64,000 nt of DNA from Gammaproteobacteria bacterium. GTDB lineage: Bacteria > Pseudomonadota > Gammaproteobacteria > Arenicellales > UBA868. Below the pieces are notes generated by a model. That model saw only the letters and a list, made by a program, of their open reading frames with translations. It was not told the DNA's origin and did not search any database. Positions 8,464 through 64,000 of this stretch are shown piece by piece (the stretch's first letter is position 1; each line of letters opens with the position of its first letter). The DNA lies in contig JAKUQR010000010.1 of assembly GCA_022450155.1 (NCBI GenBank), forward strand, positions 1 through 64,000, read 5' to 3'. Made by a program: the position numbers and the translations under genes.

Positions 8464-8466
8464 CCC

Positions 8467-9873: not shown

Positions 9874-9885
9874 ATCCGCCCGGGT

Positions 9886-11293: not shown

Positions 11294-11453
11294 CGGTCAG
11301 GTCTGGAACGCACACAGGTGAAGGTTAGCGCAGTACCGTCCCGGAGTGCAAAGACTAACCGTTATTTACTGAACCTCCAACTGGCTGTCGGCGCTAGAAT
11401 ACCTGCGGCGCCCGTGCTGGGGCAGCTGAAATGGCAATCAGGAGAAATCACCC

Positions 11454-11807
11454 ATGAGTATCCGCAGAATTGAGACCGGCGAACGAATGAGTCAGACGGT
11501 CGTACATGGCAACACAGTCTACACCGCAGGCCAGGTTGCCAGAACTGCAGCAGGTGCTTCGGTCACTGACCAGACCCACGCAGTACTGGACCAGATCGAT
11601 GCACTGTTGGCCGAAGCCGGGACGGACAAGTCAAAACTAATTTCCGCCACCATCTGGATCAGTGACATGTCGACCTTCAATGAGATGAATGCGGTCTGGG
11701 ACGCCTGGGTCAGTCCCGGTAATACGCCAGCGCGCGCCTGTGTAGAAGCCAAACTGGCGTCACCTGATTTTACGGTTGAGATTGCGGTGATAGCGGCTGT
11801 AGACTGA
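11454..11807 (+). CDS. RidA family protein (Arg-containing type)
   Basis: 117-residue RidA/YjgF/YER057c protein. RidA hydrolyses reactive enamine/imine intermediates such as 2-aminoacrylate. The catalytic arginine region is kept (PARACVEAKL near the C-terminus), followed by the closing VEIAVIAAV strand. An AGGAG site precedes ATG 11454. It begins a same-strand run with a racemase-like protein, an amidotransferase, diaminopropionate ammonia-lyase and an M24 hydrolase. The lyase makes 2-aminoacrylate, which gives this protein an obvious possible substrate. Confidence 0.92.
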   Translation: MSIRRIETGERMSQTVVHGNTVYTAGQVARTAAGASVTDQTHAVLDQIDALLAEAGTDKSKLISATIWISDMSTFNEMNAVWDAWVSPGNTPARACVEAKLASPDFTVEIAVIAAVD

Positions 11808-11847
11808 ATCGTCTGTCACAGCAGGAATAACGACTTAGCAGTATCTT

Positions 11848-12621: not shown

Positions 12622-12645
12622 ACCTGATCCAGGATCGACCTACAG

Positions 12646-13356
12646 ATGGGTCAGCGCATTGTCTTCATAGAGCATGAATCCGAACCTCGGGATGACAGGG
12701 CATCTAGATATCTTGCCGACCGGGGGTTTGCGATCGCCTGGTTCCAACCGTTCAAAGGGGAGCTTTTGCCGGATATAGATCCAGAAATTGCTGGCGTGGT
12801 TGTTACAGGTGGCGGTGCCCAAATCGATCAGATCGAACAATCACCTTATCTGTACAGCGAGGCCCAGTGGATAGAGCAGTGTCTGAAAGCTGATGTACCG
12901 GTGCTTGGGTTGTGCCTGGGTGGTCAACTCCTGGCCCATGTGCTGGGTGCGCAGGTCGCACCCCGGGATGATGGCCTGCAGGAATTCGGTTACTACACCA
13001 TTCAGCCCAACGATTCGGAAAAGCCATTCGTGCCGCAGGACTTTAACGTCTTACAGAACCATAGCCGGGGGTTCGAAGTCCCCGATGGGGCAACGCTACT
13101 CGCCCGTGGAGAACTTTTCCCAAACCAGGCGTTCTGTTACGGTGGTAACGCCTATGGACTACAGTTCCATCCCGAGGTGACTTCCACCATACTTCTTAAA
13201 CGCTGGCATGAGGCAGATTGGGCCCCCTGGAATCAACCCGGCACTCAGAGCAGGACGGAACAACAAAAGCTGGCGCCACGACACGATCCTTTGATTGGTA
13301 GCTGGTTTACCACTGTTCTAGATCGACTATTCCCAAAAGCATTAGTGACTTCTTGA
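12646..13356 (+). CDS. Type 1 glutamine amidotransferase (class I GATase)
   Basis: 236-residue stand-alone GATase1 domain related to GuaA N-terminal domains. The catalytic triad is complete: Cys90 in GLCLGG, and His175 and Glu177 in LQFHPEV. Such proteins release ammonia from glutamine or cleave gamma-glutamyl compounds. No synthetase partner lies beside it. It is embedded between the racemase-like gene (24 bases) and diaminopropionate ammonia-lyase (9 bases), so a role in nitrogen-compound catabolism is likely. Confidence 0.88.
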   Translation: MGQRIVFIEHESEPRDDRASRYLADRGFAIAWFQPFKGELLPDIDPEIAGVVVTGGGAQIDQIEQSPYLYSEAQWIEQCLKADVPVLGLCLGGQLLAHVLGAQVAPRDDGLQEFGYYTIQPNDSEKPFVPQDFNVLQNHSRGFEVPDGATLLARGELFPNQAFCYGGNAYGLQFHPEVTSTILLKRWHEADWAPWNQPGTQSRTEQQKLAPRHDPLIGSWFTTVLDRLFPKALVTS

Positions 13357-14615: not shown

Positions 14616-15788
14616 GTGTCGAATCACCCCATGCCAACCCGCGGCTTCCCGACCATTGAGTTCGAAACCCGTACAAGCTCTGCTCAGCAGGTGATGCACG
14701 ATGCTCAACTGGACGCACTGCTCGTGACAACGGAACCTGAGATTCGTTATTTCACTGGTTTTCAAACACAGTTTTTCGAAAGCCCTACCCGACCTTGGTT
14801 TCTGATCGTACCCGCCGACGGAAAGCCGATTGCGGTGATCCCAACGATCGGAGAAGCCGGCATGGCTGCCACCTGGATTGACGAGGTCAAGACTTGGCCA
14901 TCGCCCACACCCGAAGACGACGGTATCTCGCTGCTGGCTGCGACCGTCAATGCCCTGCCGACCCGTTTCGGCCGACTCGGTCTCCCACTCGGCCAGGAAA
15001 GCGTGCTCCGGATGCCGGTTCGCGACAGCCGGGTGCTGGCGGACAGCGTGTCACTCGAAATGGTCGATTGTGCACCGCTGATGCTCCGACTGCGCTTCGT
15101 CAAGTCGGACCTTGAAATTGAAAAGATTCGATTTGCCTGTGAGATCACTTCGGACGAATTCGAAGCACTGCCGGCGATTGCCGCACTCGGCGAGTCGGAA
15201 CGCGAGATCAGCCGTCGGATGCGGATGAACCTGCTGGGGCGGGGCGCCGACAGCACGCCGTATCTGATTGCCGGCTCCGGTCAGGGCGGATACGACAACA
15301 TCATCATGGGCCCGACGGATCGCTTGCTCGAAGACGGCGACGTTCTGATCATCGATACCGGCACCACCTTTGATGGCTACTTTTGCGATTTCGATCGAAA
15401 TTTTGCCTTTGGCCATATTGCCGACGATACCCGCCGTGCCCATGAAACGGTTTACCGCGCGACGGATGCGGGTTTTTCAGCAGCTAGGCCCGGCATTACG
15501 ATGGCGGAAGTCTGGGCTGCGATGTGGGAGATCTTGGAAGCGGGGGGTGCACTGGGCAACAACGTTGGACGCATGGGGCATGGCCTTGGCATGCAACTGA
15601 CCGAATGGCCATCGATCAAGCAGACCGACCACACTGTGCTCGAGCCAGGAGCAGTGATTACACTGGAACCCGGGATGTCGTTTGCACCCGGCCGTCAGCT
15701 CGTCCATGAAGAGAACATCGTGATCACAGCCGACGGCGCTGATTGGCTCACCCATCGTGCTCCCGGTGACATGCCTGTCATCACCTGA
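14616..15788 (+). CDS. M24 family metallohydrolase (Xaa-Pro peptidase/creatinase fold)
   Basis: 390-residue pita-bread enzyme with an N-terminal creatinase-like domain (EIRYFTGFQTQ) and a C-terminal M24 domain. Dimetal ligands are visible: the Asp pair in IIDTGTTFDGYFCDFDR, His in GMGHGLGMQLTEWP-type sequence, Glu in TLEPGMSF and Glu in HEENIVIT. It starts at GTG 14616, or ATG 14631. It could be an Xaa-Pro dipeptidase or an amide hydrolase like the ectoine hydrolase DoeA; the neighbours leave both open. Confidence 0.88.
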   Translation: MSNHPMPTRGFPTIEFETRTSSAQQVMHDAQLDALLVTTEPEIRYFTGFQTQFFESPTRPWFLIVPADGKPIAVIPTIGEAGMAATWIDEVKTWPSPTPEDDGISLLAATVNALPTRFGRLGLPLGQESVLRMPVRDSRVLADSVSLEMVDCAPLMLRLRFVKSDLEIEKIRFACEITSDEFEALPAIAALGESEREISRRMRMNLLGRGADSTPYLIAGSGQGGYDNIIMGPTDRLLEDGDVLIIDTGTTFDGYFCDFDRNFAFGHIADDTRRAHETVYRATDAGFSAARPGITMAEVWAAMWEILEAGGALGNNVGRMGHGLGMQLTEWPSIKQTDHTVLEPGAVITLEPGMSFAPGRQLVHEENIVITADGADWLTHRAPGDMPVIT

Positions 15789-16506
15789 TACAACCCCGAC
15801 TCCCAGTCGAAAATCAACTTTGCCCAGTGTACTCATTACCGGTGCGAGTCGTGGTCTTGGCCGTGAATTTGCGCGCCAGTACGCATACGCTGGCTGGACG
15901 GTGCACGCCGGTGTCCGCAATCTGCACCAACGTTCCGCCATCGAAGAACTCCAACACGAACAGATCATCTGCCACCAACTCGATGTTGCCAAGCACGACC
16001 AGATTCTTTCCGTTAACACTGAACTCGCCCAGGAACCGATAGACCTGCTCATCAACAACGCCGGTTTCTGGCTCGGAAAAGATGAGCACTACGGCCGCTG
16101 TGATGATGCACGATGGATGGAGGAGTTCCGGGTCCACATGTTCGGCACCATGGCCATGTGTGAGAGCTTTGTGCAGCAGGTGGCAGCGAGCAAGCGAAAG
16201 CTTATCGTCAATATATCCAGTGGTAACGGCAGTCTTACCCTAGAAAACGGCATCGGTGATTATCCGTACAACACCAGTAAGGCAGGCTTGAATCTGATCA
16301 CTAAAGGATTGGCAGCAGACCTTAAACAACGGGGCATCACCGTTGTCTGTTTCACCCCGGGCTTTGTTGCAACGGACATGTCGGGGCCCGATGCGGATCT
16401 CACCCCGCATGAAAGCGTGAGCGCGATGCGCGCCATCATCGATACGCTCGGTCCTGAACAGACGGGCACTTTTTTGCGCTACAACGGTGAAACGGTGCCC
16501 TGGTAG
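15757..16506 (+). CDS. Short-chain dehydrogenase/reductase (first of tandem pair)
   Basis: SDR with the NAD(P)-binding TGASRGLGREFARQ motif, the NNAG structural motif, a catalytic Ser in NISSGNG and YPYNTSK (YxxxK). The frame opens at GTG 15757, overlapping the M24 gene by 32 bases. TTG 15820 would start directly before the first beta strand (PSVLITGAS) and may be the real start, giving 228 residues. The C-terminus ends ...GETVPW, the same style as its neighbour, so the two are probably duplicates. Confidence 0.87.
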   Translation: MLPVTCLSSPDTTPTPSRKSTLPSVLITGASRGLGREFARQYAYAGWTVHAGVRNLHQRSAIEELQHEQIICHQLDVAKHDQILSVNTELAQEPIDLLINNAGFWLGKDEHYGRCDDARWMEEFRVHMFGTMAMCESFVQQVAASKRKLIVNISSGNGSLTLENGIGDYPYNTSKAGLNLITKGLAADLKQRGITVVCFTPGFVATDMSGPDADLTPHESVSAMRAIIDTLGPEQTGTFLRYNGETVPW

Positions 16507-45522: not shown

Positions 45523-46416
45523 ATGTTCGAAAGTTTTGAGCGATCACAGATAGACAGTAACGGCTGCCGAATCAACGTCGTTCATAGTGGTTCTGGACCC
45601 GGTCTGCTGTTGCTGCACGGCTACCCACAGAATCACGTCGAATGGCACAAAGTTGCTCCACGCCTAGCAGAGAATTTTACGGTCGTTTGCCCAGACCTTA
45701 GAGGGTATGGCGACAGCGGGAAACCACCTTCGTCAAATGACGACCTCTCAACTTATTGCAAACGGACCAGCGCCCGGGATCAGATTGCAGTGATGCGGCA
45801 ACTCGGTCATCCGCAGTTCCACCTGGTTGGTCACGACCGCGGTGTCCGAGTTGGACTTCGTCTGGCACTTGACCATCCAGATTCTGTGCTGAGTTTTACC
45901 AACCTGGATGTCATGCCATCGATGGAGGCCTTTGAGAACATGGATGCCTCGCTCGCCTATTCCTGGTTCCACTGGCACCTGATGCGGCAACCATCACCGC
46001 TACCTGAAATTGTATTCAGTACCAATCCTAAACTTTTTCTCGACTTCTTTCTGGAAAACTGGACATCGGTATCGGGCAGTTTTACAGATGCCGCTTATAA
46101 AGAATACCTACGCTGCTTTTCAGACCCCGATACCGTGCGTGCCATGTGCGCAGACTACCGCAGTGTAACGCTCGACATGAAACACGATAATGCGGACCGG
46201 GGAACAAAGTTATCCTGTCCGGTGCTGGTACTGTGGGGTAGCGAAATGTCGAAACGACCTGGTTGGCAAACTGGGAAGAATCTGGACATGATGGAGGCTT
46301 GGCGTGCACGGGCGCCCGACGTTCGAGGCAGCGCACTTGCTTGCGGCCATTTTATACCCGAAGAAAAACCTGATGAGTTGATTTCCGAATTGCTCAAGTT
46401 TTTGTCATCAATATAA
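45523..46416 (+). CDS. Fluoroacetate-dehalogenase-like alpha/beta-hydrolase
   Basis: 297-residue alpha/beta-hydrolase with the complete active-site set known from fluoroacetate dehalogenases: Asp105, Arg106 and Arg109 in GHDRGVR, Asp129 in LDVMPS, His150-Trp151 in WFHWHL, Tyr212 in CADYR and His276 in CGHFIP. The residue spacing is near identical to FAc-DEX. These enzymes hydrolyse the C-F or C-Cl bond of haloacetates. General haloacetate dehalogenase or epoxide hydrolase activity remains possible. It is monocistronic and precedes the AT-rich region. Confidence 0.85.
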   Translation: MFESFERSQIDSNGCRINVVHSGSGPGLLLLHGYPQNHVEWHKVAPRLAENFTVVCPDLRGYGDSGKPPSSNDDLSTYCKRTSARDQIAVMRQLGHPQFHLVGHDRGVRVGLRLALDHPDSVLSFTNLDVMPSMEAFENMDASLAYSWFHWHLMRQPSPLPEIVFSTNPKLFLDFFLENWTSVSGSFTDAAYKEYLRCFSDPDTVRAMCADYRSVTLDMKHDNADRGTKLSCPVLVLWGSEMSKRPGWQTGKNLDMMEAWRARAPDVRGSALACGHFIPEEKPDELISELLKFLSSI

Positions 46417-46453
46417 TAAGGATAAACAGTAGAAATCCGCCCGATATTTCACC

Positions 46454-47938
46454 CTATCCTTCGACTATCGCCTCTGCCTCGATCTCAACCAGATAATCAT
46501 CTATCAACTGTGAAATCTCAAACGTCGCATTTGCCGGGCACACGTCACCGAAATAACGGCCATGAACCAAAGATACCGCTTCACAATCTTCTGCGTTCTG
46601 CAAATAAACCCGCGTGCGGACGATATCAGAAAGAGACCCACCAAGAGACATGACACTAGCCTTAATCTTATCGAGTATATATACCGCCTGCCCCGGAGCG
46701 TCTCCTCGACAAACAATAACGTCCTGACCGTGGGTTGCGGTCGTGCCACTAACCAGAATCCGGTTTCCAATTCGGACTGCTCGGGAATGCCCACAGATCT
46801 TTTCCCATTTAGTGCCGCTGAACACTTGAGTGCGGTCGGTCTTTCCGGGTACAGCAATTGGCTCATAAACAGTAGGCAGCGAATCGAGATGGTGACTAAG
46901 ATCACCAGTTGCAGTCAAAAAAGGAGGTTCACGATACTCATCACCACAGTCGCCCTTTAGGCGGCAAATATCAGCCATCGATTCGGCGATCAGACTCTTG
47001 TCTTCCTCATCCAAAACAAAAGAAAATATCGTAAGATTATCTTGTCGGTGCTGGCTTTCGGTCAGTCTCGCGCCGATAATTACTGCGCCTACAGCCGGTT
47101 GATCCAGAACCCAGCGAGTTGCAACATTGGCTACTGAGACATCGTGACGTTGTGCAACAGATGTTAGTGCTCGCAAGATAATTTGTAAGTTTTCCCAGCC
47201 TCCCGTCTCATCTATAAACCGCTTGTATTTCATTTTGCTCCAGTCATTCAATTCTGAATTCCCTGGTTCCGGCTTGTCTAACCATCTTTCTGTAAGAAAT
47301 CCACCTGCCAAAACACCATATGCAAAAAGTTTGATGCCATTTTTCAACACCTCCGTGGTCATATCTCCCAAAGCACGTTGATCCAGCAGTGAGACCACCA
47401 CCTGGTTAGAAACAACCGGGAAACCGTGACGAAGGAGTACCAATAAATGATCGGTATCAAAGTTGGTTAAACCAATATTGGCGATCCGACCACCTTCATG
47501 TGCCAGCATGAGGCCCTCCATAGCATCTAAGTATCCTGGGTGCTGGAATGTCCACCAATGAAGCTGCAGCAGGTCTACCGATTCAACACCAAGTCTATCT
47601 GCACGCTCATCAATAGCATCTCGAACTACTTTGGGTGACATTCTGCCGGGCTTTGGACACCACTTTGTATGAAACCGCGCTACGTTCAAATTGTCGCAAG
47701 TCTCTTGACGAAGTTGAAGTATTTCCCTCGCCCGGCCAGAGATTAACTCGGCGCTTCCATAGTGATCAGCCATATCAAATGTGTCGAAACCTTCCAAAGC
47801 ATATTCAACAAGATTCTCAGCTGCCGCTTCGAGATCGAGATTGGACCCATCTTTTTCAAGATCTGCCACTTGCCATAGACCCGTAATAACTTGACTGATC
47901 TCGTAGTTTGGCGACAACAACAACCGTTCTGGTTTCAT
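46454..47938 (-). CDS. Aldo/keto reductase fused to a Rid-family domain
   Basis: 494-residue fusion. Residues about 1-335 form an aldo/keto reductase with an intact tetrad: Asp55 and Tyr60 in FDMADHY, Lys92 in FHTKW, and His127 in LLQLHWW. Residues about 370-494 form a Rid domain ending in VEIEAEAIVEG. The Rid arginine position reads CPANATFEI, so it is not a classical 2-aminoacrylate deaminase domain. An enzyme joining NADPH reduction with imine/enamine handling would fit conversion of an imine or ketone intermediate. Length is about 130 residues above usual AKRs. Confidence 0.9.
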   Translation of the reverse strand: MKPERLLLSPNYEISQVITGLWQVADLEKDGSNLDLEAAAENLVEYALEGFDTFDMADHYGSAELISGRAREILQLRQETCDNLNVARFHTKWCPKPGRMSPKVVRDAIDERADRLGVESVDLLQLHWWTFQHPGYLDAMEGLMLAHEGGRIANIGLTNFDTDHLLVLLRHGFPVVSNQVVVSLLDQRALGDMTTEVLKNGIKLFAYGVLAGGFLTERWLDKPEPGNSELNDWSKMKYKRFIDETGGWENLQIILRALTSVAQRHDVSVANVATRWVLDQPAVGAVIIGARLTESQHRQDNLTIFSFVLDEEDKSLIAESMADICRLKGDCGDEYREPPFLTATGDLSHHLDSLPTVYEPIAVPGKTDRTQVFSGTKWEKICGHSRAVRIGNRILVSGTTATHGQDVIVCRGDAPGQAVYILDKIKASVMSLGGSLSDIVRTRVYLQNAEDCEAVSLVHGRYFGDVCPANATFEISQLIDDYLVEIEAEAIVEG

Positions 47939-48057
47939 ATGGCTTTACCCTGATCTAATCACTAATCCTATTTGGTCGAATTTGTTTCTGATGATAGCGA
48001 CTAATTTGATGTCAATAACCGTACGTAACATCCTTTGCTCAGAAATTTTTGTCAGCC

Positions 48058-48921
48058 TTAATCACTGATCATTAAATTTCTTATCATCCGATTGATTTTA
48101 CTGCCGTTGTCTGCAAACTCGTCCATCACGATATCAATATGGTTACGATTCGGAACGACAGTCGCAAAACTCTTAAGGCCAGCCGCAGACCAACTCTCGT
48201 TTATCTCTAACTGCTGGAATAAAAATTCTTCGGTCTCATTCCCACCCACAATGAATAGCAATTCTCCAGCTTCGCTCGGAACATTGTGAATGGGGCTATA
48301 CATGCGAACATCGTCCTCGGAAATACATAGTATTTTATTCTTAGTACTCTGTCGGACAGGTTCTAGATCATACAATCCGCTGATCGCACAACCTGTAGAA
48401 ATAACATCAGCAGGAAGACCCTTTTCCACAGGCCATAATCTATCCATTAGCAAAGTTACCAGATGACCTCCTGCCGAATTACCCGAAATCGAAATGTTAG
48501 TTGGATCAATATTCAGATCTGACTGATGCTCATATATCCATTGAACAGCTCGCTGACAAGAGTCAATAATGATCGGGAAGTTAGCTTCTGGAAGCATTGG
48601 ATAGTCGATGACAATCACAACTGTTCCATCTTCACAGAACCCATCAGCAACAAAACTGAAGGCCTTTGCATCCAGTGAATGCCAGAATCCACCATGGATA
48701 AACATCTGAACACAACCATTTTGCTCAATAGTCTTATCAAGAAAAATATCTAACATCTGCTCTTGATGTGTGCTGTAGGGTACATTCAATACCGGTTCAA
48801 GTCTTGTCCGCGACCGGACACTTCTTTCAAGCCTTCTCTCAAACAATGAGTCTAAAAAAGGCACGCTGTCGAGGACAAACTGTGCCTCAAGCTGATCGCT
48901 ACTGTAGTTTCGATATGCCAT
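48058..48921 (-). CDS. Alpha/beta-hydrolase, kynurenine-formamidase-like (paralogue 1)
   Basis: 287-residue hydrolase with the HGGFW oxyanion motif (76-80) and the nucleophile Ser149 in SGNSAGGH, as in arylformamidases and related carboxylesterases. His of the triad is likely in NRNHIDIV near the C-terminus. It shares N-terminal layout (SSDQLEAQF..) and length with the hydrolase at 53965, so the two are paralogues flanking the transporter operon. The substrate is probably an N-formyl or ester/amide group on a small molecule. Confidence 0.83.
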   Translation of the reverse strand: MAYRNYSSDQLEAQFVLDSVPFLDSLFERRLERSVRSRTRLEPVLNVPYSTHQEQMLDIFLDKTIEQNGCVQMFIHGGFWHSLDAKAFSFVADGFCEDGTVVIVIDYPMLPEANFPIIIDSCQRAVQWIYEHQSDLNIDPTNISISGNSAGGHLVTLLMDRLWPVEKGLPADVISTGCAISGLYDLEPVRQSTKNKILCISEDDVRMYSPIHNVPSEAGELLFIVGGNETEEFLFQQLEINESWSAAGLKSFATVVPNRNHIDIVMDEFADNGSKINRMIRNLMISD

Positions 48922-48993
48922 ATATCGGACTTAACATTGCTTATTATCGATATTGAGACCAGAGAAAGAATTGGTTATCCAGAATTACAGTCT

Positions 48994-49932
48994 CTAACTC
49001 GAAAGGTGTTTTTTCTCGGGTAATATTCCTGATGGTCTAAAGACCAGCATAAGCACCAATACCATCCCCACAATAATTATTCGCAGGGATGCCGCTTGTG
49101 TCTGATAGTCGGGGGTTACGATAAAATTGATTAGACTATCACTTGCAGACCACAACCCCCAGATGACAATTGCGCCGACGATGGCACCTAGGTTGTTGCC
49201 TTTTCCACCAACGATCAACATCACATACACCTGAATTGTGAATATCGGCAAGAAATCTTGCGGACTGATAAATCGGACAAAATTTGCGTACATCGCACCC
49301 GCCAATCCCATGATTCCACAACCAAGAACAAAGGCTTGCAGACGAAACAAAAATACATTTTTTCCCAAAGCCTCGGCGGCGACTTCATCCTCTCTGATTG
49401 AACGAAGCACCCTGCCCCAGGGAGATTTCACGACACGCTCAAGAGCGTAGTAAATGAATACTATGGTCACGATACAGATGATGAGATAGCACAAATTGCT
49501 CATGAATGCAGAGTCTAAGAATCGAGAAAATGGCTTGGGTAGTGCATACAGCCCGTTTGGCCCGCGTGTCACCGACTCTGCATTAAGCGCCACCAACTGA
49601 ATACTTATTGCTATTCCAAATGTGGAAATCGCAAGAAAATCTTCTCGCAATCTCAAAGTCACCAAACCAACCAACACTCCAGCTAGACCAGAAACCACAA
49701 TCGCGCATATCCAGCCTAGAAGTATAGGCAATTCGAAACCACCGAACATGGTATCCGGGTAATCAGGACCGGTAATAATTGCACTGGTATACGCCCCAAC
49801 TGCAAAGAAGCCCGCGATACCAACATTAAACATGCCGGTAAACCCATATTGGATGTTTAATCCTAGAGAACTGATGATATAAAAAGAACAAATAATGAAA
49901 AAGAAAATAAAAAATGACAGGATATCAATCAT
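48994..49932 (-). CDS. livM: Branched-chain amino-acid-type ABC permease LivM
   Basis: 312-residue inner-membrane permease of the LivM family with about nine hydrophobic segments. The SSLGLNIQYGFTGMFNVGIAGF segment and the EAA-like SIREDEVAAEALG loop are typical. ATG 49932 overlaps livH by 8 bases and has an AAAGAG site; 49947 is an alternative. It works with LivH and the two ATPases. The ligand need not be a branched-chain amino acid; many Liv systems import amides, urea or aromatic acids. Confidence 0.93.
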   Translation of the reverse strand: MIDILSFFIFFFIICSFYIISSLGLNIQYGFTGMFNVGIAGFFAVGAYTSAIITGPDYPDTMFGGFELPILLGWICAIVVSGLAGVLVGLVTLRLREDFLAISTFGIAISIQLVALNAESVTRGPNGLYALPKPFSRFLDSAFMSNLCYLIICIVTIVFIYYALERVVKSPWGRVLRSIREDEVAAEALGKNVFLFRLQAFVLGCGIMGLAGAMYANFVRFISPQDFLPIFTIQVYVMLIVGGKGNNLGAIVGAIVIWGLWSASDSLINFIVTPDYQTQAASLRIIIVGMVLVLMLVFRPSGILPEKKHLSS

Positions 49933-50830
49933 CTCTTTCTTTCTCACCTATGATTCCCTGAGGTCTCACAATTAGGACAACAATCATGATTAGAAATGAT
50001 ATCGCGCCACGATAAGCAGAAAGATCTGCGGCGACCGCAAAGGCTTCCGTCAAACCAATCAAGAATCCACCGAGCACCGCTCCATAGACATTCGTCACAC
50101 CCCCCACGATCAACGCCGCAAACATCGGGAGTATGAGTTCGAACCCCATTTCGGGATCAAGTTGTGTGACATGAGCATGTAGCGTTCCCGCAATTGCCGA
50201 CAGCGACGCACCAATTACCCAAGACCATCGAATAACAGATTTCACGTTAATGCCATTAACCATCGCCAAGATTGGATTCTCTGCAACCGCCCGCATTTTC
50301 TTGCCCATCGTGGTTATGGATAAAAACGAATGTAGGGAAACCACACAAATAGCTGTGATAACAAGAATGACAATGTCATCTGGTACTACCTTGATGTCAC
50401 CAAATATCGGAATTGCTCGTGGGATGTAAAAGCTTAGGAACATCTGGTCCGCACCCGCAACCAGCGTGATGACATTTCGGATGATCAGCGATAACCCAAA
50501 TGCAGCAATTATGAATGTAATTCGAGATGCTGCTCTCTCTCTGAGCACACGGAAAAGCACCGAATCGACCACGAGGACAATGACACTAGTAACCGCAATG
50601 GAAAACACTATTGAGCCAAGCAAAGGCCATCCAAATGAGATGGGGCCAATAGATCCAATCCCTGCGCCCATCAACACGATAAATGCCATGGAGATGTATG
50701 CACCAATTGCAAGAATTTCACCTTGAGCAAAATTTGCAAATCGTAATACGTTGTAGGCAATGCTGAGGCCTACGGCACCAAGTGCGATGATTGAACCGCT
50801 AACAAGGCCGTCGATAAAGTACTGAATCAT
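49925..50830 (-). CDS. livH: Branched-chain amino-acid-type ABC permease LivH
   Basis: 301-residue permease of the LivH family. It opens with FIDGLVSGSIIALGAVGLSIAYNVLRFANFAQGE, the family signature, and continues with several hydrophobic segments and the AVAENPILAMVNGIN cytoplasmic loop. Its ATG overlaps the LivF stop as ATGA, so translation is coupled. It forms the membrane channel together with LivM. Confidence 0.94.
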   Translation of the reverse strand: MIQYFIDGLVSGSIIALGAVGLSIAYNVLRFANFAQGEILAIGAYISMAFIVLMGAGIGSIGPISFGWPLLGSIVFSIAVTSVIVLVVDSVLFRVLRERAASRITFIIAAFGLSLIIRNVITLVAGADQMFLSFYIPRAIPIFGDIKVVPDDIVILVITAICVVSLHSFLSITTMGKKMRAVAENPILAMVNGINVKSVIRWSWVIGASLSAIAGTLHAHVTQLDPEMGFELILPMFAALIVGGVTNVYGAVLGGFLIGLTEAFAVAADLSAYRGAISFLIMIVVLIVRPQGIIGEKERDD

Positions 50831-51582
50831 GATGCTCGTGCCATTGAACCGGCTCCAAAATAAATTTCGGCAACTTCGGGGTCCTCTAAAAGCTCGCGAG
50901 CATTTTTTACCAGTCGAAGACGGCCATTCGCTAAGATAGCCCCACGGTCGGAGACAGAAAGTGCAGCGCGTGCATTCTGTTCGACCATGACCACAGTTAC
51001 ACCACTGTCTCGAATTTGGACGACATGCTGGAAGACCTGATTTCTAAGGACGGGAGACAATCCTGCCGAAGGTTCATCAATAAGCAGTAACACGGGGTCG
51101 GCCATGAGTGCACGACCTAACGCAAGCATCTGTCTCTGACCCCCAGATAGTTTTCCAGCAGTGGTGTCTCTGAATCTGCTTAGATCGGGAAATAATTCGA
51201 AGACTTTCTCTAGCCTTTCAGCATAGGCTTGCGTGTTTAATATCGCGCCTAAATCTAGATTATGCAAAACCGTCAGTTTCGCAAATACATTTTCTGTCTG
51301 GGGCACATAAGCCACCCTGCGCTCAATGATTTCATACGTTTCCAACTCGGATATATTTTCACCCTGAAACAATATTTCACCCGATATTACTTCTATCAGC
51401 CCACAGATCCCCTTTATTAACGTTGACTTTCCGGCACCGTTCGGACCTAACAATGTAAGAATTTCACCCTGGATAACTTCCAGTGACACATCGATAACAA
51501 TCGGCAACACGCGTTGGTATCCGGCCACAAGGTTACTGACTTGGAGAATGGCTTTACCTGAGCTGGGATCAGAATTATTCAC
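50827..51582 (-). CDS. livF: Branched-chain amino-acid-type ABC ATPase LivF
   Basis: 251-residue ABC ATPase: Walker A GPNGAGKST, signature LSGGQRQ, Walker B LLLIDEPSAGLSP, and the family His-switch replaced by VEQNARAAL as usual for LivF. GTG 51582 is taken as start; GTG 51618 is possible and lies 28 bases after livG. It energises transport with LivG. Confidence 0.93.
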   Translation of the reverse strand: MNNSDPSSGKAILQVSNLVAGYQRVLPIVIDVSLEVIQGEILTLLGPNGAGKSTLIKGICGLIEVISGEILFQGENISELETYEIIERRVAYVPQTENVFAKLTVLHNLDLGAILNTQAYAERLEKVFELFPDLSRFRDTTAGKLSGGQRQMLALGRALMADPVLLLIDEPSAGLSPVLRNQVFQHVVQIRDSGVTVVMVEQNARAALSVSDRGAILANGRLRLVKNARELLEDPEVAEIYFGAGSMARAS

Positions 51583-51645
51583 GGTGACTGTTGGTGCAAA
51601 ATAATAAAGCACCAACACCTCTAGTGTTCTATAACCAATCTTGTA

Positions 51646-52416
51646 TTAGTTGTTCCTTGGAGATGCCTCACTACCCAAGAATGCATCTATCAAGCGAGGA
51701 TCTGAACGAATTTCTTCCGGACTACCTTGCATCAGCATATCGCCATCGGCCATAACTAGAATAGATGAGCACAATCGCATCACAAGTTCCATGTTGTGCT
51801 CAATGATCAGAAACGTCACTCCTTGACGGTGTATATCTTTTATTCGATCGATTATTTCTTCCAGTAAAATTGGGTTCACACCTGCAGCTGGCTCATCTAG
51901 TAGGATAAGCTTAGGATCAGACATCAACGCTCTGCCAAGTTCCAGGAGCTTCAATTGTCCGCCTGAGAGATTCCCTGAAAACTCATTCTGAAGATCAGCC
52001 AGATTTAAAAATTCCAGCAAATCCTTGGCTTTGTCTTTTATTTTGAGCTCTTCCTTTTTTACTGCACTGTTCTGCAACCAGTTGTTCCAGAGCTTTTCGC
52101 CAATTTGTTTGCGTGGGACCATAGTCAGGTTTTCAAGAACTGTCATTCCTGAAAATGGTCTAGGAATCTGGAACGTGCGAACAATGCCGAGCTGAAAAGT
52201 CTGATATGGTCTAAGGCCTGTGATCTCATGCTCATTAAAAAATACTGCGCCACTCGAAGGAGTAAGATGACCAGCGATCATATTGAATGTTGTTGTTTTC
52301 CCGGCTCCATTCGGTCCAATCAAGCCCGTAATCGTATTCGGCTCAACGGTGAATCCGAGGCCACTCACCGCAGTCAAGCCGTCAAATTCTTTTGTTAGAT
52401 TCTCAACAGTTAGCAT
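51646..52416 (-). CDS. livG: Branched-chain amino-acid-type ABC ATPase LivG
   Basis: 256-residue ABC ATPase with Walker A GPNGAGKTT, signature NLSGGQLKLLELGRAL, Walker B LILLDEPAAGVNP and the LIIEHNMELVM switch segment typical of LivG. ATG 52416 (MLTVENLTKEFDG) is the natural start; the frame is open to 52503. It is preceded by the hairpin that separates it from the binding-protein gene. Confidence 0.93.
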   Translation of the reverse strand: MLTVENLTKEFDGLTAVSGLGFTVEPNTITGLIGPNGAGKTTTFNMIAGHLTPSSGAVFFNEHEITGLRPYQTFQLGIVRTFQIPRPFSGMTVLENLTMVPRKQIGEKLWNNWLQNSAVKKEELKIKDKAKDLLEFLNLADLQNEFSGNLSGGQLKLLELGRALMSDPKLILLDEPAAGVNPILLEEIIDRIKDIHRQGVTFLIIEHNMELVMRLCSSILVMADGDMLMQGSPEEIRSDPRLIDAFLGSEASPRNN

Positions 52417-52493
52417 GGTGTAGAAATTCGTGAATCCGACTAATACTACCCTCCCTAGTGATAAAGAGTAGGTTGTAACTGTTTCAACTATTA

Positions 52494-52525
52494 AAGAGGC
52501 CAAGAAGCTAGCTTCTTGGCCTCTT
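52494..52525 (-). terminator. Perfect 32-base hairpin between livJ-type and livG genes
   Basis: Two perfectly complementary 15-base arms, AAGAGGCCAAGAAGC and GCTTCTTGGCCTCTT, surround TA. It lies 22 bases after the stop of the substrate-binding protein gene and before livG. It can act as a partial terminator or 3' mRNA stabiliser, so the binding protein is made in excess over the membrane parts, as is common in ABC operons. No strong U-run follows, so read-through is expected. Confidence 0.7.
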
Positions 52526-52547
52526 AGATCGAATATTTTGTTCCTGT

Positions 52548-53855
52548 TTAGTTGTTCATGGCTCGAACCTTCGCCTTCACTTCAGAAACCTCCTCAAGCG
52601 ATACACTGCCGACAGTAACATATTCGCCATCTTTGATTTTCATCATGACAAATGGCACGGCAACATCGCCATAAGGATCAAAATCAATCGGTCCTGTTGC
52701 GCCAACATACCAAATATTCTTACCAGCTTTGATGGCACTTATGGCCAACTTTAATCCCTCAACACCACCATGATGCTGCTCACCGTCTGGACCCGTAATT
52801 TCTCGGACAATCTTGGCAAGCGTTGGCCCGCTCGTATCGAGGCCACGCATATCAGCGGCTACCATCGCCAATCCAATAAGCACACCGGCGTCATAACCTG
52901 AATTTCGTCCGGGACCTTTGGGACTCGCGTCCCAGCGAACCTGAAAGTCGGCTTCCATCTGTTGGAGAGAAGAATTTTCTGGCGTTCCAGGACTAATGAA
53001 CCACGCATTCTTCAAAAGATCTTCACCGACGGTATCTACAAATGCGCTGTCGTTCATACCTTGTGGCATGATGAAATTTTGTGGTCCATCAAATCGAATC
53101 CAATCTCTAAAATGTTTGACGCCATCCTGGGTATTGCTGAGCATATATAAGCTATCCGGATCGCCTTCCAGTGTTTTGGTAATTTCGGACCGGTAAGTCG
53201 GTTGATCTGGATTAAATGGAACGGAATTAGCTATCTCTCCACCCAACGCCTTAAATGCATCTATAAAGCCGGCCTTGTTATTTTTCCCCCAGTCATTGTT
53301 AAAATAAATAATCGCTGGTTTACGAAATCCTGCCTGGTAAGCCATCATGGCAGCAGCGACTGCCTGTAATGAGTCTGACGGTAAAGTGCGGAAAAAGAGC
53401 CCTTTGGTCTCTCCTCTTTTCGCCATATTGGTAAACGTCGAAGACGTAGATGCTGTGGCTATGACCAGAACGTCATTCTCAACTGTCACAGAACTGAGTA
53501 ACGGAGCAGTAATACCTGACGAGACTGGACCTACCAAAGCAGTTACGCCTTCAAGATCAATCAGCTTTCGTGCGGCATCCACAGCAAGGGAGGCTTGGGT
53601 GTTTGAGTCTCGAACGTCGTATACGAGATCACAGCCAACCCCGAGTGCCGCTCTGGCTTCATTGACTTGCTCAACTCCAAGCTGAGCCGCCCTTGATATG
53701 GGAACGCCATGCGCACCATAGGCCCCGGTCAGCGAAAGCACAGCGCCGATCTTATGTTCACACGCTGCTAGAGACGCATTGAATCCACTCGAACCGGCCA
53801 TACACAATAGAGCGGCGCCCAGCACCCCCACAACCTTCTTTTGTCGCATTTTCAT
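52548..53855 (-). CDS. Periplasmic substrate-binding protein, LivJ/LivK type
   Basis: 435-residue type I periplasmic binding protein. ATG 53855 has AGGAG 8 bases ahead; ATG 53861 and an open frame to 53939 are less likely. Residues about 1-30 are a signal peptide (KVVGVLGAALLCMAGSSG) with likely cleavage after SLA. IGAVLSLTGAYGAHG and GPVSSGITAPLL are ligand-pocket strands of the family. It delivers the ligand to the LivHMGF permease. The ligand is unknown but is presumably metabolised by the neighbouring reductases and hydrolases. Confidence 0.93.
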   Translation of the reverse strand: MKMRQKKVVGVLGAALLCMAGSSGFNASLAACEHKIGAVLSLTGAYGAHGVPISRAAQLGVEQVNEARAALGVGCDLVYDVRDSNTQASLAVDAARKLIDLEGVTALVGPVSSGITAPLLSSVTVENDVLVIATASTSSTFTNMAKRGETKGLFFRTLPSDSLQAVAAAMMAYQAGFRKPAIIYFNNDWGKNNKAGFIDAFKALGGEIANSVPFNPDQPTYRSEITKTLEGDPDSLYMLSNTQDGVKHFRDWIRFDGPQNFIMPQGMNDSAFVDTVGEDLLKNAWFISPGTPENSSLQQMEADFQVRWDASPKGPGRNSGYDAGVLIGLAMVAADMRGLDTSGPTLAKIVREITGPDGEQHHGGVEGLKLAISAIKAGKNIWYVGATGPIDFDPYGDVAVPFVMMKIKDGEYVTVGSVSLEEVSEVKAKVRAMNN

Positions 53856-53964
53856 CTCCATTACTCCTTTTATTTGTAGAGGAAACAAACCATAGCTAAT
53901 AAATTTCGTTAAGCGTGAAGTGATTGTATAACGAACCAACTCTGAGTCGGAATATTTTCCATGC

Positions 53965-54828
53965 TCAATTTGAAGTTGCTAGTTTGAACAATAAACCGTC
54001 GGGCTCGGCGTAGTGATCCAGAATTGAAAAATGGTTCGCGTTTTCAATGAGTGCTGATTGACTACCCTTTCCGAGGCCAGCTTGCATCATCGCAAAGTCA
54101 TGCGTTTGTCGGACCATTTCCAAACCTTCATGGGTACCGACAGCCAGAACCAGGTCGCCGGCGTAGTTTTCACTACAGGACAGTGGCGAAAACTCGTCCA
54201 CATCGCGTTGTGTCAGACCTATTTCCCTATTACGATCGATATAGACGACTGGCTGCAGGTCGTAGATTCCACTGATACCCAAAGTTCTGCTGATTATCGG
54301 TCGTTGGTCGTGAGAGTAGCGATCCCACTGGGTTGCGGCCAGAATTGCAACGATCTGAGCACCCGCGGAGTGGCCCGCTAAATTGATCTCTCCGCTGTCA
54401 ATCCCCCAGGTTTTCAATCGACTCACAAGATCCAGAACCATTTTGCGACACGAGTTAACAAGTTCAGTCATGGTCACATCTGGGCAAAGCGGATAATTTG
54501 CGCCAATAAACGTCCAGCCCTTGTCTACAAAAGCGGGGGCCATAAACTCAAAATTTGCCTTGTCTTGGGAATACCAAAACCCGCCATGGAAAAATATGTG
54601 TACCGGAAACTCTGACCCACCCGGAAAAACATCATAGGTCTCAAGACTATGGTCTCCGTAACAAACATCAAGTTTTGTCTCTAAGTCTGCCCGAGCACGG
54701 TCGCTGTCGCGCTTCCAGCTAATCGGATAGTCATCATAGTGTGGGATTCTGTGTTTTTGGTTATAAAGATTCTCCAGTTGATCCTTGGTAAACCCTCGAT
54801 AAGGCTTGTCTGTCATTGAATTTTCCAT
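53965..54828 (-). CDS. Alpha/beta-hydrolase, kynurenine-formamidase-like (paralogue 2)
   Basis: 287-residue hydrolase with HGGFW (81-85) and the nucleophile Ser154 in AGHSAGAQ, the Asp-containing NLA..strand before it, and His in ENANHFSILD near the end. It is the paralogue of the protein at 48058 and the same length. It is the first gene before the transporter operon on the minus strand, with 109 bases to the binding protein gene. Likely function: cleavage of a formamide, amide or ester of the imported compound. Confidence 0.83.
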   Translation of the reverse strand: MENSMTDKPYRGFTKDQLENLYNQKHRIPHYDDYPISWKRDSDRARADLETKLDVCYGDHSLETYDVFPGGSEFPVHIFFHGGFWYSQDKANFEFMAPAFVDKGWTFIGANYPLCPDVTMTELVNSCRKMVLDLVSRLKTWGIDSGEINLAGHSAGAQIVAILAATQWDRYSHDQRPIISRTLGISGIYDLQPVVYIDRNREIGLTQRDVDEFSPLSCSENYAGDLVLAVGTHEGLEMVRQTHDFAMMQAGLGKGSQSALIENANHFSILDHYAEPDGLLFKLATSN

Positions 54829-55012
54829 CTACCTGAACATTAAGTGTTTAGTGACACAATCGGGAGTGAGCAATCAAGGATACTACGGACTACATCCTAC
54901 GAGTACTCTCATAAACTCATAGATTGAAGCACAATTACTATGATCGGAACCAACAAATGCGATTAATAGGAGCTAATCAATATATCCTCAAAAATCGTTT
55001 TCACTGAATACT

Positions 55013-56026
55013 ATGATTCCTAAAGTATCACTTGCCCCAGATTACTCAGTCAGCCGCTTGATTGCCGGAGGCTGGCAGTTACAAAACCAAGGCGACAATG
55101 TGATCAATGACCTTTTGCGACTCAGTCGCTATGGGATTACCACTTATGAAACTTCAGATACCTATAAAAACGGACAAACTCTTCTAGGTAGATTTCTTGC
55201 CAGAGCTAAACAATCACTCTCCAGCGAGATATTTTCAACGCTTCAAATTCATACCCGATATACAGCACCGATTACAGGTTCTGTCCCAGGTAAAGCCACA
55301 ATTGTCGATACTGTTGATCGCTCATTGAGAGAATTGAATGTCACTCGACTGGACCTGTTACAACTCCAATGGTGGAACATCGAAGTGCCTGGCTTCGAGG
55401 AAACGCTATCGGTAATTGGTGATCTTCGCAAGGCTGGAAAAATTCATCACATCGGCACTACAAACTTCGGCGTCTATCTTCTGGACCGAGCAAGATCAAC
55501 TAATGTTCCTCTAACAACAAACCAGGTTCACTACTCAATTCTAGATCGCCGAGCAGAAAATCAACTTGCCAACTATGCAAAGCAGTATGGAATAACTTTA
55601 CTAACCTACGGTGCACTGGCGGGCGGATTTCTTGCTCGGAAGTGGTTCGGTGCTCATGACCCTTTAGTCGTTCCTTCAAACGCTATCAGGTTTAGTCGGG
55701 AATATCGGTGCATCATCGATATGGTGGGTGGGTGGAATTCCTTCCAGACTCTGTTAGGTGTCCTAAATACCATCGCGTCTAAACAAAATTGCTCACTCTC
55801 AGCGGTAGCTCTGAGATGGGTGCTACAAATGGGACTTCCAAGTGCGGTTCTAGTCGGCTTATCTACCTCGCAACGACTAACAGATCTTCTGTCGGCATTT
55901 AAGATTAATCTTTCGCCAACCGACCTCGTCTCCATTCAAGAAACAGTAGGTCGTTCGAACGAAGACGTGGGCCAACTCGAGCGCGATACTGAGTCTTCAC
56001 TATTTGCAGCGATACATTCAAACTAG
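55013..56026 (+). CDS. Aldo/keto-reductase-fold protein with altered catalytic tetrad
   Basis: 337-residue AKR barrel. In the place of the Asp-Tyr-Lys-His tetrad it has Glu46, Tyr51, Arg82 and Gln119 (YETSDTY, IHTRY, LLQLQWW), so three of four positions are replaced. Other barrel features are kept, including GAGGIxxxK-type residues such as YGALAGGFLARKW. Reduced or different catalysis is likely; it may act as a lyase-like, racemase-like or binding protein. It diverges from the hydrolase and the other AKR converges on it. Confidence 0.87.
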   Translation: MIPKVSLAPDYSVSRLIAGGWQLQNQGDNVINDLLRLSRYGITTYETSDTYKNGQTLLGRFLARAKQSLSSEIFSTLQIHTRYTAPITGSVPGKATIVDTVDRSLRELNVTRLDLLQLQWWNIEVPGFEETLSVIGDLRKAGKIHHIGTTNFGVYLLDRARSTNVPLTTNQVHYSILDRRAENQLANYAKQYGITLLTYGALAGGFLARKWFGAHDPLVVPSNAIRFSREYRCIIDMVGGWNSFQTLLGVLNTIASKQNCSLSAVALRWVLQMGLPSAVLVGLSTSQRLTDLLSAFKINLSPTDLVSIQETVGRSNEDVGQLERDTESSLFAAIHSN

Positions 56027-56059
56027 ATTGAATCTCGGACTCAGACTCATCAGAATTAA

Positions 56060-57100
56060 CTAAGTTAACTGATTCTGGTTATAGCGCATTATTTGTCCAT
56101 GGCGCCCAGTCTTATCTCGCTCGAGATCATAGCAATCACCCACTGGCCCCGACCGTTCCTTTAGTGCTGAATCTAGTAGATCATTGTCGCCAGGCGTCAG
56201 CGAGAATCCAAATACCCGAAGGTTCTCTGTGATGTGAAGTGTGGACGTCGCGCCAACAATCGCAGCTGCGACTCCCGGTTTATCCAGAACCCAGCGCAAC
56301 GCCACAACTGGAACAGTAACCTCATACTTATCCGCTACAGTTTTTAAGCACCTGAGCAGTTGTTGAAAGGTGTCCCACCCGCCGAAGTCTTCGATAATTA
56401 GTTTGTACTTCGTTAGGGACCTATTTGGGAAAGGCTCTAGAGGCTCGGATTTCCCAATCCAATCAGAAGAAATAAATCCACCAGCCAAAGTTCCGTAACA
56501 CAGCTGACTAATGTTGTTCTCCAAGCTACAAGGAATGAATGACTGTTCCGGACGAACGTCTATAAGCGAGTATTGCGGCTGGTTAGTAACTATTGGAACA
56601 TTGGCTTCCAGCAATGTGCGCAGATGTGAGGTATTAAAGTTCGTAGCTCCGATCCTCGCAATTTTTCCAGCTTCTCTCAGTTCATTGAGTACAAGTGCCG
56701 TCTCAACGAAACCAGGCGTTTTGTCCGGGTCCCACCAGTAATATTGAACCAGGTCAAGTTGCTCGACCCGTAATCTCTTGAGTGAACGATCAATAATGCT
56801 TTCTACATATTGACGATCAACTGTAGCCAAACGGTCATAATCGGGTACGATCTTTGTGTGTATCTGTACGGATTTTGCCAGTTCTGGATAGGTGGTTCGA
56901 AATTTCCCTATGAGTTCTTCTACTCCCGTATAGTGATCTGCACAATCGAAAGTTGTAATTCCATGCTCAACAAATGTAGCCATATCTTTAATTGCTTGTG
57001 CTGGATCTACAGTGCCATGTCCACCCGCAAGATGCCAACCGCCCTTGATAAGTCGTGAGATCGAGTATCCCTTTGTCAATTCAATACGTTCAACGTTCAT
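56060..57100 (-). CDS. Aldo/keto reductase with Tyr in place of tetrad His
   Basis: 346-residue AKR with Asp52 and Tyr57 (TTFDCADHY), Lys83 (IHTKIVPDY) and Tyr121 in LVQYYWWD, where His is usual. It has an LCYGTLAGGFISSDW strand near residue 215 and a NADP-type GATSTLHITENL loop. His-to-Tyr or His-to-other changes occur in some AKRs, for example steroid 5-beta reductase with Glu. Its start ATG overlaps the TIGR04076-like gene stop by 4 bases (ATGA). Converges on the AKR at 55013. Confidence 0.88.
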   Translation of the reverse strand: MNVERIELTKGYSISRLIKGGWHLAGGHGTVDPAQAIKDMATFVEHGITTFDCADHYTGVEELIGKFRTTYPELAKSVQIHTKIVPDYDRLATVDRQYVESIIDRSLKRLRVEQLDLVQYYWWDPDKTPGFVETALVLNELREAGKIARIGATNFNTSHLRTLLEANVPIVTNQPQYSLIDVRPEQSFIPCSLENNISQLCYGTLAGGFISSDWIGKSEPLEPFPNRSLTKYKLIIEDFGGWDTFQQLLRCLKTVADKYEVTVPVVALRWVLDKPGVAAAIVGATSTLHITENLRVFGFSLTPGDNDLLDSALKERSGPVGDCYDLERDKTGRHGQIMRYNQNQLT

Positions 57101-57444
57101 TTAGACTTATTCCTAGGAAGTGGGTTGGCCGTGGTTTCGGAATGTGAAAATGTTCGCCGATTTAGTCTATTGATCTTAAATTTAGAACCACAATTTGGGT
57201 CAGGACAAGCAATAAGATTGTCTGTTGACATCCAATCGTTGGGATCAGTTTCTCTCTGTTTAGCAGGAAGAAGTGGCAAGAGAGCTGCCAAAGTATAAAT
57301 TGACCATGTTTGTGATTCTGGGAATTCTAGATGTTCCCCTCTCAAATAGAAGCAATCCCCAGCTTTAGCGCCACACCAACAAGGCCTGTCTCCCTCAAGC
57401 CACTCGATCTTTAAATCATAAAGTGAAAAAGTATCGTCAATCAC
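57097..57444 (-). CDS. TIGR04076-like small protein
   Basis: 115-residue protein resembling the TIGR04076 family: LKIEWLEGDRPC, GDCFYLRGEHLEFPE, and the IYTLAALLPLLPAKQRE helix. Cysteines at CWC..GDC and CPDPNCGSKF could bind a metal. AGGAG precedes GTG 57444. It is coupled with the AKR downstream. I know no established function; family members often accompany aldo/keto reductases and alpha/beta-hydrolases in anaerobes and catabolic operons, which fits here. Confidence 0.7.
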   Translation of the reverse strand: MIDDTFSLYDLKIEWLEGDRPCWCGAKAGDCFYLRGEHLEFPESQTWSIYTLAALLPLLPAKQRETDPNDWMSTDNLIACPDPNCGSKFKINRLNRRTFSHSETTANPLPRNKSK

Positions 57445-57630
57445 AGATATCTCCTGTTGGAATGGAACAGCGATTTGAATCCGACATGAGAGGCCGAGTT
57501 AACACCCAAAACTCCCGACTGATTTAATGAGTCGTTCGCGCCATTCTATCCCAAGAGAGATTTCAAAATTGTTCACCGATCAATTCAAAAAGTACACTAG
57601 TCCTCTCAGATCTTACTGGTGGAAATACTG

Positions 57631-58236
57631 ATGGCATTACGCACTGAAAACACTGCACTGATTGTCATCGATATGACAAATGGGTGGTGCTCATCTGAAG
57701 GACACATGGCAAAACTTGGTTTTGACACAACAATGTGTCGTGACACTGTGGACAAATGCAGATCACTGATCATGTACGCACACCAAAGTAATGTGCAAGT
57801 GATATTTACACAACATATCTATCGAGAGGATTACTCCGATGGGGGTTTCATCGTTGATGAAATAATGCCCGAATTGAAATCAGTTAAACCAGCTTCTGCT
57901 AACGCATGGAGTAATCAAATCGTTACCCAACTAAGGCCTCTACAACAAGACATAGTCATCAAGAAAAATAGATACAGCGCATTTTTTTCTAAGGATTTCA
58001 CAAACCATCTTAAGCGACTCTCCATCACTGACTTGGTACTATGCGGTGTCACAACCAGTATGTGTGTCGAAAGTACAGCACGGGACGCAGCTCAAAGAGA
58101 TTACCGAACTTTCGTGGTTAAAGATGCAACAGCCGATATCGAAACTATTCGATACGAACAAGCACTAATCAACTTGGAATTTGGTTTTGCCCGCTTGATA
58201 TCGGTTTCCGACGCTAAGGACAAATGGAGCGGGTAA
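57631..58236 (+). CDS. Isochorismatase-like cysteine hydrolase
   Basis: 201-residue protein of the isochorismatase-like hydrolase family. The Asp-Lys-Cys triad is visible: Asp14 in IVIDMTNG, Lys111 or Lys112 in IKKNRYSAF, and Cys145 in LCGVTTSMCVESTARDA. Members hydrolyse small amides, such as nicotinamide, N-carbamoylsarcosine, maleamate or ureidoacrylate. ATG 57631 has a GGTGG site at good spacing; GTG 57619 is possible. It closes the AT-rich block and may release ammonia from the degraded compound. Confidence 0.87.
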   Translation: MALRTENTALIVIDMTNGWCSSEGHMAKLGFDTTMCRDTVDKCRSLIMYAHQSNVQVIFTQHIYREDYSDGGFIVDEIMPELKSVKPASANAWSNQIVTQLRPLQQDIVIKKNRYSAFFSKDFTNHLKRLSITDLVLCGVTTSMCVESTARDAAQRDYRTFVVKDATADIETIRYEQALINLEFGFARLISVSDAKDKWSG

Positions 58237-58258
58237 CTAGTTTGTGTAGATCCAGCCG

Positions 58259-61945: not shown

Positions 61946-62059
61946 CGGCACGCCCGGTACGTGACTTTCCAGATGGCGGAGGTGGCGGTGCCGAAGGCGC
62001 TGTTCGAGCAGATTCTCGCACAGATTGCCCGGCTCACGCCGTCGTGCGACACGGGATAG
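61940..62059 (+). mobile_element. 3' end of an IS1380-type transposase
   Basis: The plus strand encodes VVRHARYVTFQMAEVAV followed by PKALFEQILAQIARL and a stop at 62057-62059. This closely matches my recollection of the C-terminus of IS1380-family transposases. The 5' part of the element is not present; the sequence switches to the iron-sulfur gene at about 61940. I could not recognise a terminal inverted repeat in 62060-62310. Confidence 0.6.

Positions 62060-64000
<1,941 letters not shown>

Follow-up and report, generated by a model that had tools for sequence, protein, structure and literature searches.

An aldo/keto reductase fused to an arginine-less Rid domain at the end of a conserved ABC importer cassette

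The stretch of DNA analysed here (the window) comprises 64,000 nucleotides of contig JAKUQR010000010.1 from the gammaproteobacterial assembly GCA_022450155.1, and it encodes an aldo/keto reductase (AKR) with a C-terminal Rid domain in the same chain. About 60 loci of Alpha-, Beta- and other Proteobacteria carry this AKR-Rid fusion. Comparison of these loci shows that it ends a conserved uptake cassette, consisting of a branched-chain-type ABC importer with its substrate-binding protein (SBP), a second AKR (AKR2) and a TIGR04076 protein, often joined by GntR and DUF4440 proteins. Judged from the sequences, the cassette may import and degrade an amino compound, the Rid domain handling an enamine or imine and the AKR its carbonyl; this reading is offered tentatively, with somewhat less than even confidence.

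The fusion lies in a single open frame on the minus strand, the plus strand at 46454-47938 being full of stops. Its parts are as follows:

46454-47938, minus strand: AKR-Rid fusion gene, 494 amino acids, one ATG-to-stop open reading frame, recurring in about 60 loci
46982-47890, minus strand: AKR domain, residues 17-319 (PF00248, E 4e-47, 161 bits against a cut-off of 24)
46886-46954, minus strand: conserved AKR C-terminal/linker segment, residues 329-351 (GDCGDEYR-PPFLTA-GDLSHHL)
46466-46792, minus strand: Rid domain (Ribonuc_L-PSP), residues 383-491 (PF01042, E 8e-19, 68.2 bits against 27.3)
46529-46531, minus strand: AAT codon of Asn470, in the PAN motif, at the position equivalent by alignment to RidA Arg105

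The Pfam matches and the reading frame agree with a first-pass annotation of this DNA, which had described a full AKR with an intact tetrad and a Rid domain in one 494-residue chain. Its report of an asparagine at the Rid arginine position is likewise borne out by N470 of the PAN motif, the strand (minus) having been left unstated. A full-chain AlphaFold2 model of the monomer, built with an alignment, has a pLDDT of 90.5 and a pTM of 0.90. The structure prediction that the annotation had proposed thus gives a Rid domain modelled with high confidence within the whole protein. When folded alone from a single sequence, the Rid domain reached a pLDDT of 40, which is uninformative, and the full-length model was used instead. 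Residues 329-351 rank among the best-conserved stretches of the protein in the alignment, and residues 344-349 are of low confidence in the model.

The AKR domain belongs to the aldo/keto reductase superfamily, and would be expected to have NAD(P)(H)-dependent carbonyl/alcohol activity. The tetrad residues D55, Y60, K92 and H127 are invariant in 38 of 38 homologous rows. A Foldseek search with the model returned AKRs as the best matches (E 5e-17, probability 1.00) with the (beta/alpha)8 fold, and the matches listed for the model are AKRs alone. The AKR11 proteins (GSP69, IolS), DepB and 7utf share PF00248 and the D-Y-K-H tetrad with the fusion, at a TM score of about 0.75 by target. Identity to solved AKRs is about 20-23%, and no AKR family number is therefore assignable; the C-terminal Rid domain sets the fusion apart from them.

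A scan of GTDB genomes detected 28 fusion loci, 27 of them spanning both domains and the other (L034) interrupted by a contig end, and a scan of plasmids yielded 17 records over nearly the whole AKR-Rid query as well as one partial record. The fusion is present in 44 of 249 genomes in a sample that represents one family around Hoeflea. It is sporadic in the window's own class (1 of 274 genomes), and three relatives from the window's family carry it, one as a truncated copy. The domain-architecture search suggested by the first-pass annotation thus finds that AKR-Rid fusions recur, and this recurrence in GTDB, plasmid and Hoeflea-family loci excludes a sequencing join of two genes, which the annotation had named as a ground for refutation. 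That two separate genes were wrongly joined by assembly or annotation is vanishingly improbable: a single open frame is found in about 60 loci, including isolates, MAGs and finished plasmids, one linker is conserved across loci, and the Rid domains of the fusions form one clade.

The sequences are well preserved over their whole length. An alignment of 30 AKR-Rid sequences has more than 100 invariant columns, including the stretches FDMADHYG, TKWCP and HWW, the C-terminal AKR segment DCG-EYR...GDLS-H, and PAN and EI-A-A of the Rid domain, and the minimum pairwise identity among 62 distinct fusion Rid domains is 42%. One locus (L009), on a contig bearing the label SAR202 (Chloroflexota), shares 85% identity and synteny with the window, flanking genes included, and is likely to reflect a binning error or a very recent transfer. 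Two homologues (G425:C1:1178438-1179889 and G497:C45:487917-489368) contain one in-frame TGA and are possibly broken copies.

The position equivalent to Arg105 of RidA, the residue that marks the RidA/Rid1-3 imine deaminases, is asparagine in all 62 distinct fusion Rid domains (and in 38 of 38 homologous rows), as with Asn470 in the window, and the NCBIfam model TIGR00004 scores AKR-Rid at 55 bits, below its cut-off of 106. In a tree of 83 Rid domains, all 62 AKR-Rid rows form one clade (100/95), nested in a broader group of equally arginine-less standalone Rids (100/96) and separate from the arginine-bearing RidA-like proteins. The tree rests on few columns and includes several long branches, which makes its inner order untrustworthy, but support for a single clade of fusions is good. 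The first-pass annotation was therefore right that the catalytic arginine is absent, but this is no peculiarity of the protein in the window; it extends to the whole arginine-less group, with asparagine fixed in the fusions. Standalone members of this group that are unlinked to the cassette mostly have T, A, S, C or D at the arginine position, which, set against an asparagine that is invariant in 62 rows, rules out decay as the cause of the loss.

Other positions also separate the two kinds of Rid. In AKR-Rid numbering, position 386 is R in the arginine-less group, 443 is mostly R and 459 often H, whereas arginine-bearing Rids have Q or P, T or G, and Y or M at these positions; E485 is common to all Rids in the tree. 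R386, R441, R443, H459, N470 and E485 are invariant in the fusion Rid domains. By a simple offset to the published numbering (PMC6742747), S397, G398 and position 441 appear to match cleft residues of AmnE. This 2-aminomuconate deaminase was considered and rejected as a model for the asparagine, as AmnE retains a cleft arginine (Arg117, PMC6742747). More generally, RidA deaminases share the fold and Rid-like cleft residues with the fusion, but their essential arginine is an asparagine here. The same is true of RutC, which has the essential arginine and whose gene, too, belongs to a catabolic operon (PMC8113886).

The Rid4-Rid7 subfamilies lack the arginine and keep the glutamate, as does the fusion (N470, E485), with which they also have in common PF01042, the Ser-Gly pair (S397/G398) and mostly a tyrosine (384). 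In place of the arginine, Rid4 and Rid7 have tryptophan, whereas the residue varies in Rid5 and Rid6 (PMC4433059). Since tryptophan makes Rid4 and Rid7 unlikely, the fusion Rid is most likely, to judge from its residues, a domain of the Rid5/Rid6 type. It differs from the arginine-less subfamilies in its AKR partner, in an asparagine that is fixed instead of variable and in its transport and catabolic cassette. The nearest solved chain, 3i7t, is likewise without the arginine. The functions of Rid4-Rid7 were termed completely unknown in 2015 (PMC4433059), and deaminase activity had been shown for none of them by 2021 (PMC8113886).

In the window, AKR-Rid is the last gene of an eight-gene co-directional run with gaps of -23 to 119 nt, in the order HSLb, binding protein, two ATPases, two permeases, HSLa and AKR-Rid. 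The genes of this run and those beyond it are:

48058-48921, minus strand: HSLa, alpha/beta hydrolase with an HGGFW motif, 119 nt from AKR-Rid
48994-49947, minus strand: branched-chain-type ABC permease 2
49925-50830, minus strand: branched-chain-type ABC permease 1
50827-51618, minus strand: ABC ATPase 2
51646-52503, minus strand: ABC ATPase 1
52548-53939, minus strand: periplasmic SBP (Peripla_BP_6), with orthologues in most AKR-Rid loci
53965-54828, minus strand: HSLb, a second alpha/beta hydrolase of the HSLa type, probable first gene of the run
55013-56026, plus strand: AKR3, a third AKR with a degenerate tetrad (K to R, H to Q)
56060-57100, minus strand: AKR2, a standalone AKR and cassette partner, whose tetrad His is replaced by Tyr in the window
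57097-57444, minus strand: small Cys-containing TIGR04076 protein (64 bits against a cut-off of 33), overlapping AKR2 by 4 nt
57619-58236, plus strand: isochorismatase-family amidohydrolase at the edge of a low-GC island, of uncertain cassette membership

The PDB matches of HSLa include the kynurenine formamidase 4e11 (E 2e-15) among several esterases, HSLb has relatives of 43-44% identity in L139 and L140, and for neither hydrolase was a curated equivalog found over its cut-off. A PDB sequence search with the SBP (E 1e-12) found no solved relative, and hence no hint of the ligand. The tetrad histidine replaced in the window's AKR2 is His in 19 of 27 aligned AKR2 rows and Tyr or Phe in the other 8. 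The isochorismatase-family gene shows no conservation in other AKR-Rid loci. Together with the AKR-Rid gene it coincides with the edges of a 12-kb stretch (about 46.0-58.2 kb; 46000-58240 in the window) of 40-51% GC, set between flanks of about 53-58%. This low GC content suggests horizontal transfer, and the cassette in the window was probably acquired in this way. At the far end of the window (62001-64000), the GC content rises abruptly to 64.5%, and both strands contain long overlapping ORFs.

The same set of genes is preserved elsewhere. In 55 fusion loci, many of them cut by contig ends, the SBP and ATPase 1 were each detected in 49, permease 2 in 47, AKR2 in 44 and TIGR04076 in 37, with TIGR04076 adjoining AKR2 across loci. 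Higher counts for AKR2 (59 of 59) and for standalone Rids (RIDsolo, 36) were set aside as too high, since they include cross-hits to the domains of the fusion itself. In the Hoeflea-family sample of 249 genomes, a second AKR match occurs in all 44 fusion genomes, and 10 more genomes have the second AKR alone. On plasmids, the cassette forms an intact block between unrelated genes, with GntR, TIGR04076, AKR2, sometimes DUF4440, and the binding protein in this order on one strand, and two ATPases, two permeases and AKR-Rid on the other. The cassette is thus apparently mobile.

Cassettes of this type that lack the fusion indicate what may stand in for it. Of 29 AKR2 loci that lack the fusion, 10 contain a DAO-family FAD oxidase (PF01266), as against none of 59 fusion loci. 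In L054, L084 and L090, the oxidase occupies exactly the AKR-Rid position after permease 2; this is not always so, and in L082, L086, L088, L089 and L137 it is located beside the SBP. The best NCBIfam match of the FAD oxidases is the L-pipecolate oxidase AmaA (NF050086), at 305 and 303 bits, far below the cut-off of 600. On one plasmid without the fusion (L130), an AspDH-like gene follows the transporter. Standalone Rids associated with cassettes (L010, L086, L139, L140, L142, L143) have asparagine at the arginine position in six of six cases, and two of them (L142, L143) are encoded directly next to the FAD oxidase and on its strand. HydA/HydB genes (hydantoinase/caprolactamase-like or oxoprolinase) are found in six sister loci (L139, L140, L142, L143, L083, L091). 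Both DAO-type enzymes and AspDH produce imines from amines, and the context of the cassette therefore argues for an amine/imine step and against a random fusion.

A link to tryptophan and kynurenine catabolism is seen in some loci. Kynureninase is encoded in 36 of 44 fusion genomes and in 97 of 205 others (Fisher P 2e-5, a statistic that ignores relatedness), and lies less than 5 kb from the fusion gene in 5 of 44 genomes compared with 0.09 expected by chance placement, again ignoring relatedness. In the same five genomes, which belong to a sample of Rhizobiaceae-like genomes and several of which may be kin, tryptophan 2,3-dioxygenase (TDO) adjoins the fusion gene. One locus (L114) has both genes inside the operon, in the order ATPase-ATPase-permease-permease-kynureninase-TDO-AKR-Rid on one strand. 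In L144, kynureninase and a formamidase-like hydrolase adjoin the transporter, and L010 has a kynureninase-like gene and HydB in one co-directional run whose last genes are AKR-Rid and a standalone Rid; in L010, L139 and L140, the score of the kynureninase-like gene falls short of the cut-off for the family. In several genomes, the cassette has operons of the kynurenine pathway (TDO, formamidase, kynureninase) next to it or interleaved with it, but most cassettes are without TDO or kynureninase nearby. The substrate stays a lead, given such cassettes, the possible kinship of the genomes and statistics that ignore relatedness. No step in the kynurenine pathway is known to need an AKR-Rid.

The window's own genome contains a kynureninase, and TDO was not found in it. 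Its contig C20 (L151) carries a kynureninase-like gene adjoining HydA/HydB hydantoinase/oxoprolinase genes at 7716-12795 and a Rid-like ORF at 15549-15950. In L153, where a kynureninase-TDO operon faces AKR-Rid, a small RidA-like ORF (7928-8359) directly follows TDO. An indoleamine dioxygenase about 8.6 kb from a haloarchaeal TIGR04076-AKR2 pair was judged too distant to count.

In the proposed pathway, the importer would take up an amino compound, perhaps a kynurenine-like one or another derived from tryptophan or kynurenine, and the cassette enzymes would degrade it. N470 and the invariant E485, with R386, R441, R443 and H459, would be located at or near the inter-subunit cleft of the Rid domain, which may bind a reactive enamine or imine intermediate and speed its tautomerisation or hydrolysis. 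With its classical tetrad and NAD(P)H, the attached AKR could reduce the carbonyl so formed or, in the reverse direction, make the precursor. Where the fusion is absent, the DAO-type FAD oxidase, sometimes with a standalone Asn-type Rid, would perform the equivalent amine-to-imine step. The earlier suggestion that the AKR and Rid domains act on one unstable imine or enamine is thus partly upheld: the conserved fusion fits it, as does the context of FAD oxidase, AspDH-like and Asn-type Rid genes, but the arginine-less Rids tested so far show no deaminase activity. Neither the arginine-less Rids assayed so far nor RutC R104A have detectable imine/enamine deaminase activity (PMC4433059, PMC5619798, PMC8113886), which makes imine hydrolysis by the fusion Rid uncertain. 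The most far-reaching version, in which Asn-type Rids are active enzymes that use Asn470 and the relocated arginines on a tryptophan- or kynurenine-derived enamine or imine and the fused AKR consumes the released carbonyl, is rather unlikely.

The Rid domain may also, in line with the effector-binding alternative of the first-pass annotation, be a non-catalytic, trimerising ligand-binding module, detecting an effector or substrate in the clefts between its subunits and either regulating three AKR barrels or bringing them together. This is fairly unlikely, although the RidA arginine is absent from all fusions, no deaminase activity is known for arginine-less Rids (PMC8113886) and the model is one confident chain (pTM 0.90). 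Standalone Asn-type Rids in sister cassettes, beside an FAD oxidase in L142 and L143, imply that the Rid works without an AKR tether, and the invariance of E485, R386, R441, R443, H459 and N470 goes beyond what a scaffold needs. Catalysis of another reaction (isomerisation, lyase, or lactam or ester chemistry, compare the Rid-fold chorismatases), with the AKR taking the product, would account for R386, R443 and often H459 where Gln, Thr and Tyr are otherwise found, for a weak match to the profile of FkbO/Hyg5 chorismatases and for the hydantoinase/oxoprolinase genes of some sister cassettes. However, that match is far below the cut-off (14.7 against 325 bits), and the FAD amine-oxidase-type genes found alongside speak for imines; such a reaction seems distinctly unlikely. 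The identity of the substrate is a separate matter, and another amine or a cyclic amine or lactam (pipecolate-like, hydantoin-like) is a real but doubtful possibility, with the proximity of TDO and kynureninase reflecting clustered catabolic islands. The best score of the FAD oxidases with L-pipecolate oxidase, HydA/HydB in L139, L140, L142, L143, L083 and L091, and the lack of kynurenine genes from most plasmid-borne cassettes are in keeping with such a compound; TDO and kynureninase within the L114 operon and less than 5 kb away in four more genomes, and the formamidase-like hydrolases in the operon of the window, favour the kynurenine-derived substrate of the proposed pathway.

In the open-access literature, no description of the AKR-Rid fusion or its cassette was found, and public annotation on plasmids labels the protein simply 'aldo/keto reductase'. 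Nor was a paper found there showing substrate channelling for a Rid fusion, which the first-pass annotation had given as established. The DUF71/Dph6-RidA proteins likewise carry Rid C-terminal to a partner enzyme (PMC3541065), and the tandem 3x-RidA proteins (PMC4433059) are the other known Rid fusions; AKR-Rid differs in having an oxidoreductase as the partner and a Rid domain without the arginine. It links one arginine-less Rid type to a defined partner enzyme, to an importer with a testable binding protein and to sister cassettes with an FAD oxidase, and the partner, the importer and the oxidase replacement make the function of such a Rid directly testable. If the Asn-type Rid does prove active, this would be the first function for an arginine-less Rid subfamily, in an undescribed uptake and catabolic pathway.

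The TIGR04076 protein was found in the open-access literature only in passing, in the Bilophila isethionate cluster. Its pairing with AKR2 extends to a further group of loci (L083, L087, L091, L145, L148) that include an M14 carboxypeptidase, and judged by gene content these are another cassette type around AKR2. In L083, L087 and L091, the pair is also accompanied by HydB, TDO and a dipeptide-type transporter.
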